This document shows, piece by piece, positions 18,467 to 44,753 of a stretch of 59,738 nt of DNA. Where the stretch lies: the NCBI GenBank assembly GCA_016213735.1, contig JACQZU010000006.1, positions 1 to 59,738 of the forward strand, in the 5' to 3' direction. Under the pieces are notes generated by a model, which ran no database searches, was not told the origin of the DNA, and worked only from the letters and a program-made list of their open reading frames with translations. The first letter of the stretch is position 1. Every line of letters starts with the position of its first letter. The position numbers and the translations under genes are program-made. Source of the DNA: Acidobacteriota bacterium. GTDB lineage: Bacteria > Acidobacteriota > Holophagae > Holophagales > Holophagaceae.

Positions 18467-21400
18467 TCAGTGGACGGTGCGCCAGACCCGGGCCTTGGGA
18501 TAGCGTTCCCGGGAGGGACCGAGGAAGGTCTTCAACTGGAGGGTGGTGGCGGAGGTGCCGGAACCGGGAGGGGGGGCGCCCGCGCCGGTGGGCACGACGC
18601 CCCCTTGGATGACACCCCGGGTGCCCAGGGCGACGTACCCCGTGCTCACCCCGGCCCAGATGAACACCTGGCCGCTCTTGCAGGCGACCGTGGTCCGGGT
18701 GTCGTTCACGATCGGATTCAGGACGTCGCAGAGAATGAAGCTGCGGGTCTCCCCGTTCCCCCCGGCGCAGGGGTCGGCGCTCTGGGGATTGAAGTAGTTG
18801 TAGAACAGGGCCCCGGCCACGATCATGGGCGACACGATGCCCTTCGGAATGAAGCCGTTCGAGATGGACGGGAAATCCACGTAGTAGCCCAGGAATGGAT
18901 TCCCGCTGGCCGGGTTCAAGTAGTAGGTCGTGGCGCCGGGCGTGATTTCGGGATTCGTCGGGTTGCTCTGGTTGGAGAAGTTCTTGAGCGAACCGTCGAG
19001 GATCCCGTTGGTGTCCGTGCCCCAGGCGTAACTGTCCTGCCGGTCGAAGACCACGGTGAGGCGGTGATGGTTGGGGGTGGTGCCCGCACTGTACAGGTAG
19101 TCCAGGGGATTGTTCCGGTCCCCGCTGACCATGGCCACGCCCACGGCGGAGGGGGGCATCTGGCCGGTCTTGCCGGCCCCGGGGAAACGGCCCACCCGGA
19201 AGGGCGCAGGGTGGGTGGTGTAGCGTGCCCCGTTGCCCGAACTGTCCTGGTAGACGTGGCGGATGCCCGGGAGGGAGCCCTTGTTGCCGTCGGTGGTCCA
19301 GAGGGCCAGGTCGGAGCTGTCCACCCGGAAATCCATGAAGGGCGCGGTGCCCTGGCGGCCCAGGGCTCCCCAGGACCAGAGACCGCCCTTGTAGTCCATG
19401 AAGTACGCGCGCTGGGCCATGCCGCTGTTGAGGAAGTACTCGAAGGGCACCAGGCCGACGGGGATGGAGCCGATGGTGGCCGAGACCGCCCGGAGGTCAG
19501 CGGCCGCAAGGGCCCTCCCAGTCCAGACGTCCATCGCCAGAACGGATCGCCCCAGGGGAATGGGATTCCCCGAACCGTCCTTGAAGTTGACTTCGATCTC
19601 GGGGAGGCTCAGGCCCCCGCCAAAGAACACGGCATCGTGCATGGCCTTGTCGAACTGGACCCGGCCCAGGGCGGGGGTGCAAGAGCTGAACCCCATGCTG
19701 GCGATGACGGACTGCACGGTTCCGGAGGGGGGTCCCCCGGGCTCGACGGCGGTGGCGCGGACGCCGGCCTCGTCGGGAACCACCGCCCAGCGCAGGGCCG
19801 GGGTGAAGGGGTCGTGGATGTCCAGGGCGTAGTAGCTGCGACCGCCCTTGTTCAACCCGATCACGGCCAGGGCCCGTTCCCCGGAATCCACCAGGCCGTT
19901 GCCTCCCCCGCCCAAGGGGTTGGGCAGGTCCAGGTGGTAGATGGTGGGGGTGCCGTCCACCATGAAGCGGTGGGGGTTGGTGGTGGCCCCGAGGTACTGA
20001 AGGTTGGCCAGGAAGTCGGTGGGAAGGAAGGACCAGAGTTCGTCCACCGCGCCCACGACCACTTCCTGCTCGACGCCGCTCCCGTCCATCACCTTGGTGA
20101 CCTTGCTCACCTCTCCGAAGGCGTGGAGCCAGCCCTGGTTGGTGCCCACCAGGATGAGGCGGAACCGGTTCCCGCCCACCGCCGCGAGCCGAGGGGTCAA
20201 CTTGGTGGAGACATCGCTCCAGGTGAATTCGATGGCGGTAGGGCTGGAGTTGATGACGTCCCCCATGACATTGTCGCGAATGGTGGTCGGCCGGGGCGGG
20301 ACCGAAGTGTCCTTGGGCCCGTTGATGTCGGCCCCGGCGACATGCTGGATGATGGCCTTCTTTTGGTCGTCGGTGAGGGCGAGCGTCGGATAGGTCGGGG
20401 CCGGTCCCCCGATGCCGAGGTACGGCTTGAGAAGGGTGAATGCCGGGTCCTGGTCCGAGAACGCCGTGAGGCCCGCCAAGGGGGCGCCGAAGCCGGTGGG
20501 AGTCGACACCGCGGGATCCGGCGTGTTGGGCAGTCGGGTGTAAAGCTTCCGTGCCGTCCAGAGTCGGCTGGTTTTCAGGCTCTCCGCCGCGGACCACTGC
20601 GCGGAAGTCTCGTCGATCACCGAGGCCACGTTCCCGGACTTGTCCAGGATGTAGGTCTGGTCCCCCGACTCCTTGGTGGGGAACATCAGGAGGTCTCCGG
20701 GCCAAATGACGCCGCCGTTGAGAGGGGGCTTGAACTTGCCAATGTAGACCTGCTTGCCGAGGCTGGCCCCGATGTAGGGGAGGTTCGGGTTGCTCGTCTG
20801 GTTCACGTTGGAACTGAGGGAGGCCATCTGGAAGGCGAAATCCAGGCTCTGGGTGAGCAGGGCCGGATTGGTGGCGTCGAAGAAGTTGACCGAGGTGGGG
20901 TCCTTCCCCTTGCTGGGATCCGCGGGATCGAGCAGGGTGAAGGGCTTGAGGGTCTTCAGGTCCCAGGTCTTGGTGTCCGGGTCTCCCACGGCGGCGGCCG
21001 CGAACAGGCGGAACTTGGGGGCGGCGGTATTCGTGGTGGTTCCGGCCAGGCTCACGCCCACGGTCATGGTGGAGATGGGATGGGGGCGCTTGAAGGTCAC
21101 CGCGGGGCTGCCCCGTTGGAGAATGTGGAAGGGCAGGTACGAACGCACGGTGGAAGTGGACCCTGGCCAGGCCCCCTGGGGGTAGGAGGCAGGCACGGGG
21201 ATGGTGCTGGCCAGGCTGGTGTCCGCCCCGTGGGCGGCGATCCCGGCCAGGCTCACGATGTTGAACCACTGGGAGGGCTGCCCCGCGACGACCGTGCCCG
21301 GCTCCATGCTGTTCATGTTGGCGGCGATGGCGGCATTGCCCGAATTGGCATCGCCCACGAAGGTGGTCGAGTTGAGGTAGGGCGTGGTGGTGCTGGTGGG

Positions 21401-22816
21401 CGTCCCCGTTTCACCGTTGGGGACGCCGTCCGTGAAGACGAGGAGGAAGCTCTTCCGGCACTCGATGGGCGCGTCGGAACCCGTCTCCACGGCGTTGAAC
21501 ACGCTGCTGGCGTCGTTGTACTGGGCCAGGGAGTGGGCCATGGCGTAATTCAGGGGCGTGCCGTTCATGGGGGCGTAGGAGGCCAGGCGCTTCAGGCCCG
21601 CAAAGCTGTTCCCGTTGAGCACCACCCAGGCCCGCTGGGTGCCCCCGATGACGCCGCCCGAGGTCTCGGCGGTGGTGGTGGGGTCCGTGGCGCTCATGTC
21701 CCGGGTGCTGTCGGAGTTCAGGGTGCTTCCCTCCATGACCCCTGAGGAGCCCGAGGTGTCGTTGATGAACCGGTAGGCCCAGAACACCTTGTTCCAGTAC
21801 TTGACCCAGACCTGCATGGCCGCGTCCTTGATGGCCTGGGCCCGGGTCCGGGCGGGAATCCCGCTGGCGAAGGCCTTCCCCGTGCCGCTGGCCTGGGGGA
21901 TGGTGGTGGAAGTGGTGAAGACCCATTGCCAATAGGCCGGCCGGAAGCCCGCGAAGTTGACATTCACGTTGCACTTGCTCGCCCCTCCGTTGAAGGGGGC
22001 TGCCGCCGTGTTCGTGATGCTGCTGAAGACGTTGCTGACCCGGTAGCTCCGGTCGATCTCGAGTTCTGTGTTGGAGGCGGGATCCAGGATGGTCATGGCC
22101 AGCGGGTAGTTGCTGGCGTACATGTTCCGGTACTCCCCGGCGGGGATGTTCCGGACCACCGTGGGGCTGTCGAGGACCGTCCAGCAGATGGGAAGGTCGA
22201 AGGTCTTGCCCCCGGAGGTGAAGCGCACGTGGCTGGCGCTGCGAATCCAGTTGCGCACATCGGCGGCGAAGTCGGGATTAAGGGTCGTTGTCGCCCCGGG
22301 CTTGTATTCCCCCGCCAGGAAGGGGGCCGCGGAATCCCAGGTCCCCGCCCAGTTCTTGAGGGGAACGTAGTTGTTCCTGACGGCAAGATCGCCGTTGTTC
22401 GCGTAGTTCAAGAGGCTCCCGTCAGGCCGGACCAGGCTCCCGGCACTGAGGTTGGGCCCGCCGTTCCCGGACATGTTGCACGTCACGGTCACCTCGAAGC
22501 GCTGCGCCCCGGCGACCACCCCCTTGCTCGCCAGGGTGAAGGTCATGGCCACGTCCGTGCCGTAGAGGCTGTCGGTGACGTCGGCACTGACGTAGTCCTT
22601 GTGCCACATGATCGCCCGCATGGACCCCGTGAAATCGAACAAGGTCATGATCTCGGGCTTCATGGTGGTCAGGCTGTTGCTCTGCTGGAAGAGGTCCAGG
22701 AAGTCCGTCTTGCTGGTGCGGAGGCGCGGATCCAGCTGGGCATGGGCGAAGGTCCCTGCGGCCAGGAGCAGCCCGGCCAGCAGGGCGCGGTGGGGCGCGA
22801 AACGCTTGGATGACAT
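18467..22816 (-). CDS. pilY1: PilY1-type pilus tip adhesin/assembly factor
   Basis: The product is a 1449-aa secreted protein. The ATG at 22816 follows AGGAG and starts a signal peptide ending AHA at residue 26. The N-terminal half is von Willebrand A-like: D61-F-T63-G-S65 stands where a MIDAS DxSxS is expected, and VFTDGVPNGETG lies further on. The C-terminal half matches the PilC/PilY1 beta-propeller (IGLNKGGRSYYALDIHDP), with an Asp/Asn-rich possible calcium loop (TDTNGILDG). PilY1 proteins cap type IV pili, support retraction balance and adhesion. Last gene of the minor-pilin operon. Confidence 0.92.
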   Translation of the reverse strand: MSSKRFAPHRALLAGLLLAAGTFAHAQLDPRLRTSKTDFLDLFQQSNSLTTMKPEIMTLFDFTGSMRAIMWHKDYVSADVTDSLYGTDVAMTFTLASKGVVAGAQRFEVTVTCNMSGNGGPNLSAGSLVRPDGSLLNYANNGDLAVRNNYVPLKNWAGTWDSAAPFLAGEYKPGATTTLNPDFAADVRNWIRSASHVRFTSGGKTFDLPICWTVLDSPTVVRNIPAGEYRNMYASNYPLAMTILDPASNTELEIDRSYRVSNVFSSITNTAAAPFNGGASKCNVNVNFAGFRPAYWQWVFTTSTTIPQASGTGKAFASGIPARTRAQAIKDAAMQVWVKYWNKVFWAYRFINDTSGSSGVMEGSTLNSDSTRDMSATDPTTTAETSGGVIGGTQRAWVVLNGNSFAGLKRLASYAPMNGTPLNYAMAHSLAQYNDASSVFNAVETGSDAPIECRKSFLLVFTDGVPNGETGTPTSTTTPYLNSTTFVGDANSGNAAIAANMNSMEPGTVVAGQPSQWFNIVSLAGIAAHGADTSLASTIPVPASYPQGAWPGSTSTVRSYLPFHILQRGSPAVTFKRPHPISTMTVGVSLAGTTTNTAAPKFRLFAAAAVGDPDTKTWDLKTLKPFTLLDPADPSKGKDPTSVNFFDATNPALLTQSLDFAFQMASLSSNVNQTSNPNLPYIGASLGKQVYIGKFKPPLNGGVIWPGDLLMFPTKESGDQTYILDKSGNVASVIDETSAQWSAAESLKTSRLWTARKLYTRLPNTPDPAVSTPTGFGAPLAGLTAFSDQDPAFTLLKPYLGIGGPAPTYPTLALTDDQKKAIIQHVAGADINGPKDTSVPPRPTTIRDNVMGDVINSSPTAIEFTWSDVSTKLTPRLAAVGGNRFRLILVGTNQGWLHAFGEVSKVTKVMDGSGVEQEVVVGAVDELWSFLPTDFLANLQYLGATTNPHRFMVDGTPTIYHLDLPNPLGGGGNGLVDSGERALAVIGLNKGGRSYYALDIHDPFTPALRWAVVPDEAGVRATAVEPGGPPSGTVQSVIASMGFSSCTPALGRVQFDKAMHDAVFFGGGLSLPEIEVNFKDGSGNPIPLGRSVLAMDVWTGRALAAADLRAVSATIGSIPVGLVPFEYFLNSGMAQRAYFMDYKGGLWSWGALGRQGTAPFMDFRVDSSDLALWTTDGNKGSLPGIRHVYQDSSGNGARYTTHPAPFRVGRFPGAGKTGQMPPSAVGVAMVSGDRNNPLDYLYSAGTTPNHHRLTVVFDRQDSYAWGTDTNGILDGSLKNFSNQSNPTNPEITPGATTYYLNPASGNPFLGYYVDFPSISNGFIPKGIVSPMIVAGALFYNYFNPQSADPCAGGNGETRSFILCDVLNPIVNDTRTTVACKSGQVFIWAGVSTGYVALGTRGVIQGGVVPTGAGAPPPGSGTSATTLQLKTFLGPSRERYPKARVWRTVH

Positions 22817-22830
22817 GGGGTGGCTCCTGT

Positions 22831-23478
22831 TCATCGCACGCCGACGGCGGTGGAGATGAAGGCTTCCTTTGAGTGGACGAAGGTGGGCGCGAGGGCTCCG
22901 CTTCCAACCTGGACCTGGGCATCGGACCGGAGGGCCCAGAGGTCCGGGGCCTGGCGTGAAACGGCGCCCTGGGCCGGGGTGAAGCTCCCCTGGACGACGC
23001 CCTGGCTGATGTTCTGGATGGGCAGCTTCCCCATGCGGGTCAGCCCCACCGAGGTCCACTGGGTGGTGGCGGGCATCCCAGGAGACGGCGCGGGCAGGGC
23101 AATGGTCAGGTCGGGCTGGGGGGTGGACCAGGGCCCGGCATAGAGCCCCGCCGTGATGGGATCGTAGGGCTTCCCGGCCAGGGTGTCGTCCTGGAGCAGG
23201 GTGCGGCGGAGGTTCTGCAAGGCAAGGGCCGTGGGTGTGGCGCTCGTGGGATCCCCGCCGATCCAGACCAGGGACCACTCGATCCCCGAATCCGCCACGT
23301 TGCGCACCATGGTGCCCTGGCGGCTGGTGCCGGTGATGACCACTTCCCGGAAGGAGTTCCGGGACATGCCCACCGCCGCCACCGTGAGGAGAACCAGGAG
23401 AAGGAGGGCCACCATGATGGTGAGCCCGCCGGACTGGCTCCTGCTGTGGGGGTGCCGCTGCTTGTTCGCTCTTCGCAT
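22831..23478 (-). CDS. pilX: PilX-like minor pilin
   Basis: The 215-aa protein has a short basic leader and a hydrophobic helix (TIMVALLLLVLLTVAAVGM, residues 20-38) followed by SRNSFREVVITG, as in the PilX N-terminal family. The usual prepilin Gly-Phe-Thr cleavage context is replaced by SGGLTIM. The ATG at 23478 follows GGGAGA. It sits between pilW and pilY1; minor pilins of this set prime pilus assembly together with PilY1. Confidence 0.85.
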   Translation of the reverse strand: MRRANKQRHPHSRSQSGGLTIMVALLLLVLLTVAAVGMSRNSFREVVITGTSRQGTMVRNVADSGIEWSLVWIGGDPTSATPTALALQNLRRTLLQDDTLAGKPYDPITAGLYAGPWSTPQPDLTIALPAPSPGMPATTQWTSVGLTRMGKLPIQNISQGVVQGSFTPAQGAVSRQAPDLWALRSDAQVQVGSGALAPTFVHSKEAFISTAVGVR

Positions 23479-40820: not shown

Positions 40821-40906
40821 GCTCCCGTGGCGGAATGGCAGACGCCGCGGACTTAAAATCCGCTGCCCGCGAGGGCGTGCCGGTTCGACTCCGGCCGGGA
40901 GCACCA
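40821..40906 (+). tRNA. tRNA-Leu (anticodon UAA)
   Basis: An 86-nt class II tRNA with a 7-bp acceptor stem (GCTCCCG with CGGGAGC), a D-arm, anticodon loop CTTAAAA giving UAA, a variable arm (CCCGCGAGGG) and the T-loop GGTTCGACTCC. The CCA end is encoded at 40904-40906. The long variable arm is expected for leucine. Confidence 0.96.
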
Positions 40907-43154: not shown

Positions 43155-43751
43155 TCAGCCTCGACCCAGCTTGGCCCGGAGGACATCCCCCTCCAGCGCA
43201 ACCTGGATTCCGAGTGCCTCGCCGAGGCGCACCGCCCAGCGGGAGGCGAGGTCCCTGGGTCCTGGGCCTCCGGGTGCCAGGGCCTCCGGGAGGGTCGGGC
43301 ACGCGGAGAGGAGCACCTCGAAGGAACCCCCGTCCCGGCCAAGACCAATGGTGAGGCCCTGGTCCGCTGTGTAAGGGAGGAGGAGCCGCGCCATGGCGTG
43401 GATCCAGCCCCGGAGCAGGACCCCCGGAACCGGGGTCTCCGGCGGGAGGGACGAGTCGATCTGGATGGTGGACCTGAACATCACCCGGAGAGGCTCCAAC
43501 TGGGTGTGGAGCCGTTCCTTCCAGGTTTCCAGCGGTTCGGAATCGGCGGAGGGGAGGGTCTCCATGGCCAGGCTTCGGGCCCGCACCAGGGCCGTCTGGC
43601 CCTCGCTCAAGGCCGCGGAGAGGCGCCTCCTGTCCCGGTCGGAGAGGGGCCGTTCCGCGGGGGAGAGGTCGAGGATCCCCTGGACCCCGGACAGCACGTT
43701 CGCAAGGTCGTGCAAGGTCGCCCGGATGAGTCCTTCGGCGGCGGCTTCCAT
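43155..43751 (-). CDS. DHp-like histidine phosphotransfer/sensor-kinase fragment protein
   Basis: The 198-aa protein opens with a helix containing LHDLANVLSGVQGILDL (near residues 13-29), like the dimerisation/His-phosphotransfer helix of sensor kinases. A second helix and an alpha/beta domain follow at the position of the kinase ATPase domain. No clear N-box or G-box is seen, so it may be a ChpT-like phosphotransferase or a degenerate kinase. The start at 43751 is the first plausible one; the ribosome site is weak. It diverges from the MshEN gene. Confidence 0.6.
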   Translation of the reverse strand: MEAAAEGLIRATLHDLANVLSGVQGILDLSPAERPLSDRDRRRLSAALSEGQTALVRARSLAMETLPSADSEPLETWKERLHTQLEPLRVMFRSTIQIDSSLPPETPVPGVLLRGWIHAMARLLLPYTADQGLTIGLGRDGGSFEVLLSACPTLPEALAPGGPGPRDLASRWAVRLGEALGIQVALEGDVLRAKLGRG

Positions 43752-43829
43752 GGCAAGTCCATCAATGTGTTGGCGTTCAAGCCCCCACCCAGGGTACCGT
43801 ATCGGTACCTTCCCTGAAGGGTTTTTCCC

Positions 43830-44753
43830 ATGCAGAGCCACACCAAGCGCCTGGGCGAGATGCTGGTGGACGCCGGGCTGATCTCCCCCGCCCAGCTCCA
43901 AGAAGCCCTGCGGCACCAGCGGTTCGCCGGAGGCCGGATGGGCACCAATCTGGTGGCCCTCGGCTACATCAGCGAAGAGGTCCTCATGGACTTCCTTGCC
44001 CACCAGACCGGTGTGCCCAGGGCGGATCTCCGCACCCTCAACATCGACCTGGCGATTCTCCGGCGCATCCCCCGCCGCCTGGCCGAGCAGCTCACCATCC
44101 TTCCCCTCGCCTACAAGGAACCCAAGACACTCGTCCTGGCCATGGCCGATCCGTCGGACCTCAACGCCATCGACAGTGCCCGCTTCGCTTCGGGACTCAC
44201 CATCGAACCCATGGTGGCCTCCCACAGCGCCCTGCGGTCCGCCATCGCCGAACAGTACCGGAAAGTGGACGGCGGCGCCCCGGCTCCCATCACGGTGGAG
44301 GTCGGCCCTTCCCTCAACCTGGACGAGGGGCTTCCGGTCAATTTCGAGATTCCCGCCCCGGGGCCCAACGACAGCGCGCCCTCCTCGTCCCCCGCGGTGA
44401 AGCCCTACCCCAAGGATCCCTTTTTCGACGGCATCGAAGGGGTCTCCCCTGCGGACCCCTTCGGCCTGTTCGAGGGGGGTGGAGAGGGGGCCGCCCCCCC
44501 CGCCCAGGGCACGCCCCTGCCCGGCACCGCGACCTCCGCGGGATCCCCCGCGCCATCCGCGGGAGGCCTCATCCCCTCCCGGAACGCCCGGGAAGGACGG
44601 ACCAGGCCCCTGGATTCCTTCCAGACCCGGGTGCTCCTCATTGGACTGGTCCGGCTGCTCCAGAAGCGGGGGGTGCTCGGGGAGGACGAACTCCAGCGCT
44701 TCTTGTCCAGCCTGATCGAGAGCGGGCTGCTCAGGGAGGACGGGAAGGACTAG
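43830..44753 (+). CDS. Orphan MshEN-domain protein (predicted c-di-GMP binding)
   Basis: Residues 6-60 hold the tandem MshEN pattern (KRLGEMLVDAGLIS, then RMGTNLVALGYIS) found at the N-terminus of GspE/PilB-type ATPases, where it binds cyclic di-GMP. Residues 60-145 continue as the GspEII_N-like domain (ILPLAYKEPKTLVLAMADPSD). There is no ATPase domain; instead a long Pro/Ser/Gly linker leads to a C-terminal helical segment (TRVLLIGLVRLLQKRGVL). A role as a c-di-GMP-responsive adaptor is inferred. Confidence 0.78.
   Translation: MQSHTKRLGEMLVDAGLISPAQLQEALRHQRFAGGRMGTNLVALGYISEEVLMDFLAHQTGVPRADLRTLNIDLAILRRIPRRLAEQLTILPLAYKEPKTLVLAMADPSDLNAIDSARFASGLTIEPMVASHSALRSAIAEQYRKVDGGAPAPITVEVGPSLNLDEGLPVNFEIPAPGPNDSAPSSSPAVKPYPKDPFFDGIEGVSPADPFGLFEGGGEGAAPPAQGTPLPGTATSAGSPAPSAGGLIPSRNAREGRTRPLDSFQTRVLLIGLVRLLQKRGVLGEDELQRFLSSLIESGLLREDGKD

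Follow-up and report, generated by a model that had tools for sequence, protein, structure and literature searches.

A stand-alone MshEN protein and a degenerate histidine kinase core encoded back to back in Holophagaceae: a candidate c-di-GMP receptor and its putative ChpT-like neighbour

Background

What might an MshEN domain do when the ATPase to which it is normally joined is missing? The question is raised by two divergent genes in a stretch of 59,738 nucleotides (hereafter the window) on contig 27 of a 3.59-Mb acidobacterial draft genome in 28 contigs. One gene, P1, encodes an MshEN protein; the other, P2, a predicted histidine kinase core. Both were found where an earlier note on this DNA had put them:

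43830 to 44753, plus strand: P1, stand-alone MshEN protein of 307 amino acids (open reading frame, Pfam, NCBIfam, predicted model)
43155 to 43751, minus strand: P2, degenerate histidine kinase core of 198 amino acids, with its ATG at 43751 (open reading frame, family matches, model, fold search)
43752 to 43829, no strand: divergent intergenic region, 78 bp between the start codons of P1 and P2 (sequence)

Our best explanation, drawn from the sequences and from predicted models, is that P1 is a receptor or adaptor for cyclic di-GMP (c-di-GMP) and P2 a ChpT-like phosphotransferase, both behind one divergent promoter. We consider this probable, though well short of certain. The parts are of known kinds; their combination and its conservation are new, in the sense that they were not found in the open-licence literature searched, where no paper on the pair turned up. 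In what follows, f1 stands for the family of the window, and f2 and f3 for two other families of the same class; g numbers are genera, G numbers are genomes and L numbers are loci or alignment rows.

P1, an MshEN protein without an ATPase

Judged by its sequence, P1 has an MshEN domain in which the residues that contact c-di-GMP are preserved, and no ATPase. Residues 61-144 match the Pfam family MshEN (PF05157; E 4.8e-18, 65.4 bits, cut-off 23.1) and residues 7-59 the NCBIfam model of the MshE-type c-di-GMP motif (NF053729; 77 bits, cut-off 38). No ATPase domain was found in P1 with Pfam, where the only match besides MshEN is a sub-threshold DUF4388. The ATPase equivalogs of NCBIfam touch P1 by their N-terminal parts only and far below their cut-offs (67.9 bits against 675.65 for PilB), and the C-terminal secretion ATPase domain that marks PilB, GspE and MshE is absent from its 307 residues. 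By sequence, its solved relatives are the N-terminal domains of PilF, PilB and MshE.

In the predicted model the MshEN domain (residues 1-148) is confident. The predicted local distance difference test score (pLDDT) falls below 50 over most of residues 150-262 and is about 70 in a two-helix hairpin at 264-297. Foldseek places the model onto MshE with bound c-di-GMP (5htl) at 1.6e-10. The domain matches and the model thus agree with the earlier description of an MshEN domain followed by a long linker and a short helical tail, with no ATPase. The parts of P1 are as follows:

43848 to 43919, plus strand: first 24-residue c-di-GMP half-motif, P1 residues 7-30, RLG...L...L..Q (motif definition in PMC5013675; conservation over 56 rows)
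43935 to 44006, plus strand: second 24-residue c-di-GMP half-motif, residues 36-59, RMG...L...L..Q (motif definition in PMC5013675; conservation)
44010 to 44261, plus strand: MshEN alpha/beta subdomain, residues 61-144 (PF05157)
44277 to 44615, plus strand: linker, mostly predicted to be disordered, residues 150-262 (pLDDT mostly below 50)
44415 to 44426, plus strand: DPFF linker element, residues 196-199 (54 of 57 P1 rows)
44454 to 44471, plus strand: DPFGLF, second linker element, residues 209-214 (a similar.PFx(x)F in 48 of 57 rows)
44619 to 44720, plus strand: C-terminal helical hairpin, residues 264-297 (predicted model)

The two half-motifs (RLG, LxxxLxxQ) and the contact residues of Vibrio cholerae MshE are as defined in passages of PMC5013675. 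Across both half-motifs, P1 of the window differs from those contacts solely by a Met in place of Leu39. Conservation was counted over 56 P1 rows, leaving aside L138 and L088, which are truncated or doubtful. The equivalents of Gly11, Gln32, Arg38, Gly40, Leu54 and Leu58 are present in every row; that of Gln61 is kept in 53 and is Lys in three, and Arg9 is represented by Arg in 39 rows and by Lys in 17. Ile replaces Leu29 in 38 rows, Leu39 gives way to Met in 16 and to Thr in one, and Leu25 to Gln in one. Outside the MshEN domain, a loose pattern for the hairpin fits 50 of the 57 rows (all except L138) over which the linker elements were also counted. A profile search with the hairpin among solved structures gave only chance-level matches (best E 0.69, nitrile hydratase beta), and we do not assign it to a known domain.

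P2, a kinase core without ATP-binding motifs

With the window's copy of P2, neither Pfam nor NCBIfam gave a match at E up to 5, and a sequence search with it alone met no solved structure. Among 39 members of its family, at the same limit in Pfam, HisKA matches 26 (best 0.0015), SPOB_a six (best 0.015), DUF4771 one and HATPase families none. Other weak matches were set aside: a designed protein (E 0.29), the only hit of the 39-row profile among solved structures, and in NCBIfam a nitrile hydratase accessory protein (five rows, best 0.018), a methyltransferase and a VirA-like kinase (0.26).

The predicted model, built from a five-sequence alignment, has a mean pLDDT of 86 and consists of two long helices followed by strands and helices in the order of a catalytic and ATP-binding (CA) domain. 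Foldseek relates it to HK853 (6.3e-8) and ChpT (4fmt, 9.5e-8), with HK853, ChpT and DivL lying within one order of magnitude in E. The VIA comparison gives DivL (4q20) a Z of 14.5 over 193 aligned residues at a root-mean-square deviation of 3.5, and the phosphotransferase 4qpj a Z of 11.9 over 180 residues at 4.0; entries 4qpj and 4qpk are titled bacterial phosphotransferase, and we take them to be ChpT. P2 is thus predicted, on its model, to have a complete histidine kinase core, a dimerisation and histidine phosphotransfer (DHp) hairpin plus a Bergerat-like CA domain:

43563 to 43748, minus strand: DHp-like helical hairpin, P2 residues 2-63 (model, fold search)
43710 to 43712, minus strand: codon of the predicted phospho-acceptor His14 (HDLAN) (His14, Asp15 and Asn18 all invariant over 49 rows)
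43167 to 43541, minus strand: CA-like (Bergerat) domain, residues 71-195, without recognisable N, G1 or G2 boxes (model, fold search, motif patterns)

The two halves of this core have fared differently. His14, Asp15 and Asn18, which form an HDxxN motif, are invariant (the 49 rows leave out the broken L088), and when P2 was aligned by hhalign with eight kinases of the same genome, the H-box was aligned in one comparison (E 4e-5, probability 70). Patterns for the N-box and the G2-box occur neither in the 48 relatives of P2 nor in the window's copy. The string D.G.G is found in seven of the 48, always at position 100; since this precedes the helix equivalent to the N-box, it is not a G1 box. P2 therefore has the predicted DHp domain and phospho-acceptor His of a histidine kinase and no recognisable ATP-binding boxes, and on these missing motifs we reject the idea that it is an active kinase. 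The earlier view of the neighbour as a kinase core without nucleotide-binding motifs agrees with the fold prediction and with the absence of HATPase matches. The profile search for kinase motifs, whose success the note had named as a refutation, recovered the phospho-acceptor half, weakly, as HisKA, but not the ATP-binding half.

The search for P2 covered f1, f2 and f3; among the 13 genomes of f2 and f3 included, its profile detected none. It did match two ordinary frames of 719 and 709 codons (2.4e-4 and 4.3e-4), in which the match covers an HDFNN H-box and is followed by a canonical-looking ATP-binding half. Because the profile picks out two such frames, a kinase of this HDFNN type is a plausible ancestor of P2.

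Conservation of the pair

P2 is divergent to P1 in all 57 f1 genomes that have a P2 match, with 74-168 bp between the matched parts, while the outer neighbours vary: a radical-SAM/TRAM gene, presumably of the miaB type, feoB, feoA, a CDP-alcohol transferase, lepA or a response regulator. The co-occurrence of P1 and P2 and their arrangement are not due to chance. Placed back to back over some 80 bp, the two genes are probably co-regulated from one divergent promoter.

P1 itself is more widespread. A P1-type match that includes the N-terminal part occurs in 65 of 77 f1 genomes; the search tool's own tally of 71 counts PilB-type matches too. The 12 genomes without it are three of g2, four of g11 and five of g3, a genus that we take to be Geothrix. 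The five g3 assemblies are in 290-530 contigs each, and one of them holds a tail fragment. A P1-like match turned up in each of the seven f3 genomes searched. Its open frame, 229-347 codons long, leaves no room for the ATPase, and there is a hairpin-like tail at the C-terminus in the four that were read by eye (G238, G379, G433, G405). In f2, where six of nine genomes were searched, every MshEN frame has at least 552 codons, apart from a 185-codon one close to the end of a contig.

A 43-row tree divides 24 ATPase-free MshEN domains of f1 and f3 from the other 19 with support 97/99. The 19 comprise ATPase-type frames, frames cut by a sequence end and a 311-codon orphan from another class on a very long branch; the tree is midpoint-rooted only and was built without the other MshEN protein of the window's genome (L003). 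The ATPase-free MshEN proteins of f3 thus group with P1 in this tree.

Two variations on P1 may be mentioned. The single-contig genome G070 has a P1 cut to about 167 amino acids (L138), adjoining a feoB-type match that covers part of the query. In f3 there are tandem two-MshEN proteins without an ATPase (L141:6878-7924, L187, L188), two of the three ending near a DPDIIIFG element.

A response regulator next to P2

In 19 of the 57 genomes with P2, all of g3, the next gene after P2 on its strand encodes an OmpR-type regulator (coordinates compared by eye; in one of them, G025, a stop is flagged within the match). The one member scanned has Response_reg and Trans_reg_C domains. At 15 of the 16 g3 loci measured, the distance from P2 lies between a 28 bp overlap and a 6 bp gap; the remaining one is called at a 79 bp overlap, probably from a start placed too early. 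Of 16 alignment rows, 15 show a receiver with the expected acidic pair, Asp and Lys; the L102 copy is changed at these positions. Because this gene follows P2 with overlap or near contact, it suggests by analogy that a transcriptional regulator may receive phosphate from P2 in the way that CtrA is supplied by ChpT.

A possible mechanism

How could such a pair work? By analogy with MshE, the N-terminal four-helix half of P1 probably takes up a single c-di-GMP. A partner would dock on the C-terminal hairpin and on the flexible linker, which bears the DPFF and DPFxxF elements. P2 would be a kinase core that can no longer sense or bind ATP and that now serves as a dimeric phosphotransferase of the ChpT/Spo0B kind. 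Its invariant His14 would take phosphate from an upstream receiver or kinase and pass it to a response regulator, which in part of one genus is probably the adjoining OmpR-type protein. A more speculative suggestion ties the two together. P1 loaded with c-di-GMP might bind P2 through the linker elements or the hairpin and so gate the flow of phosphate through His14 to the OmpR-type regulator. This would be a relay like that of ChpT and CtrA, arisen independently in the family and taking its input from a separate c-di-GMP receptor. We offer it tentatively, and in this complete form we think it distinctly unlikely.

Alternative explanations

Several observations weigh against the explanation that we favour. 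P1 stands without P2 in eight of 65 genomes (two of g4, five of g6 and G048; read by eye, directly upstream of P1 there is a miaB-type gene in g6 and another gene in g4). Hence P1 does not need P2, and the idea of an obligate pair was rejected. In 38 of the 57 genomes no such regulator was seen next to P2. The window's genome is one of them: there the miaB-type gene follows P2, and the regulator's closest relative (61%) lies on contig 12 beside an ordinary HisKA/HATPase kinase. By simple dN/dS estimates, which are rough in GC-rich DNA, P2 (median 0.43 over 290 pairs, up to 1.07) evolves faster than P1 (0.29 over 752 pairs, up to 0.87), some P2 pairs being near 1. The window's own P2 has V at position 108 and L at 123 instead of the W and Q found in 48 of the 49 rows, and this copy may be decaying or specialised. 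P2 of G072, matched in two pieces, looks broken. The structure predictions drew on five sequences for each protein. It is quite possible, if not what we would expect, that P1 and P2 are mere neighbours sharing a promoter, P1 being a receptor for something else and P2 a member of a separate two-component pathway. The genomes with P1 and no P2, the P1-like proteins of f3, where no P2 was found, and the 19 genomes in which P2 adjoins a regulator gene would all suit such an arrangement; what speaks against it is that the outer neighbours change and yet P1 and P2 stay divergent wherever P2 occurs. The proposal that the two form one c-di-GMP and phospho-signal adaptor pair stands as far as the genes keep together, but P1 can do without P2 in some f1 genomes and has P1-like counterparts without it in f3. 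P2 could instead be a pseudokinase scaffold or a phosphatase that binds a receiver and tunes another kinase, like DivL or RetS. DivL is the best VIA match and RetS is listed too, ATP motifs are lacking, and a conserved H-box would fit phosphatase activity as well; however, DivL has sensory domains and a Tyr at its phospho-site, whereas P2 has His there in every row. We consider this somewhat unlikely.

A role at type IV pili, which the earlier note had raised for the pili it saw encoded in the window, has evidence on both sides. P1 might act on the motor of a type IV pilus or of type II secretion, in place of PilB's MshEN domain or in competition with it. The domain is typical of these ATPases, and a PilT-family match of 5.1e-121 or better occurs in all 65 genomes with P1 (76 of 77 f1 genomes match at 1e-40). 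Five of the seven g2 and g11 genomes that lack P1 have weak PilT matches only, about 1e-44 to 1e-46, but the other two, G073 and G075, have strong ones. Since g2 has small genomes (0.9-1.2 Mb) and completeness is 64-69% in the two g11 genomes with weak matches, the joint absence of P1 and strong PilT is poor evidence. Moreover, the identified neighbours of P1 (of the miaB, feoB/feoA, CDP-alcohol transferase and lepA types) include no pilus motor gene, and in the tree the P1 clade stands apart from ATPase-fused MshEN domains. The 20 open reading frames scanned in the window include the flagellar genes flgK, flgI and flgH (3.6-8.2 kb) and two for N_methyl prepilin-type proteins (23.5-25.9 kb); the latter, the nearest pilin-like genes, lie about 17 kb away from P2. 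The same genome carries its ATPase-type MshEN genes on contigs 7 and 10; it has five PilT-family matches, and the three listed sit on contigs 7, 21 and 23. A pilus role would fit the co-occurrence of P1 with PilT but is not required by it. The lack of neighbouring motor genes and the two genomes with PilT and no P1 led us to keep a pilus adaptor as a rival and not as the leading explanation, and we rate it unlikely. It is very improbable, finally, that the MshEN domain of P1 has drifted and lost c-di-GMP binding, as in XpsE. Substitutions do occur at the Arg9, Leu39, Leu29, Gln61 and Leu25 equivalents, but most are conservative, the window's P1 carries just the one at Leu39, and none repeats the XpsE substitutions given in passages of PMC5013675, even though the Leu29 and Gln61 positions do change in XpsE.

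Relation to known systems

With V. cholerae MshE (5htl) and with PilB/PilF, P1 shares the two 24-residue half-motifs, their five-residue spacer and the alpha/beta subdomain; unlike them, it has no ATPase and carries a disordered linker and a C-terminal hairpin. Passages of PMC5013675 describe MshEN with non-ATPase partners (REC, HD-GYP, CheA and others) and in FrgA, PA3740 and Bd2402. P1 likewise has its MshEN apart from a secretion ATPase, and its likeness to these proteins rests on the MshEN part. For Leptospira, no stand-alone MshEN is named in passages of PMC12943098.

According to passages of PMC3433190, ChpT has a DHp plus CA-like plan, does not autophosphorylate and has no ATP lid. The predicted model of P2 agrees with that description in its DHp domain, its atypical Bergerat domain and the absence of a sensor. 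With ChpT (4fpp, 4fmt) the model shares a His-bearing DHp hairpin and a CA-like domain without an ATP lid, and where, in part of a genus, the gene of an OmpR-type regulator adjoins P2, the arrangement is reminiscent of ChpT and CtrA. Against this, identity in structural alignments is about 9-18%, the phylum is another, and at E up to 5 the 39 members match no phosphotransferase family in Pfam besides the SPOB_a helix domain. From DivL, its closest structure by VIA and likewise a degenerate kinase core, P2 differs in having no sensory domains and in keeping its His. PhyT, Spo0B and ChpT are described in passages of PMC5898713 as degenerated histidine kinases or kinase-derived phosphotransferases. 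As to Spo0B and PhyT, SPOB_a is matched weakly by six of the 39 members, and P2, at 198 amino acids, begins at its DHp.

The locus looks like a small signalling hub. It would add a lineage of ATPase-free MshEN receptors that spans two families of one class. At a locus where both genes stay together, it would also add what is likely a ChpT-like phosphotransferase from beyond the alphaproteobacteria, the group from which ChpT is known. If P1 and P2 do talk to each other, they would make a small system for the gating of a phosphorelay by c-di-GMP.

Additional observations

A near-perfect palindrome lies in the divergent promoter:

43791 to 43811, no strand: 9-3-9 palindrome AGGGTACCGTATCGGTACCTT, operator-like (sequence)

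It has one match in the window and none in 100 shuffles. Sought in the upstream regions of 57 loci, it was not conserved in relatives. In many g3 genomes (L083, L085, L105, L128 and others) a conserved block, TGCACAAAA...TTGAATAAAGTTACCTTGG...TCTGTGCA, can be seen by eye between P2 and P1. At L121 (G048) the DNA upstream of P1 resembles the start of P2, again by eye, with no P2 match, as if P2 were being lost. A protein with two receiver-domain matches (L111:7148-8008) follows lepA beside P1 and is found in many g3 genomes at 70-87% identity.

Elsewhere in the window, an open frame of 1603 amino acids (18467-23278, minus strand) beside the prepilin-like genes has no Pfam match at 1e-4, and a tRNA-Leu (anticodon taa) at 40821-40906 lies within a stretch that can also be read as a long open frame.
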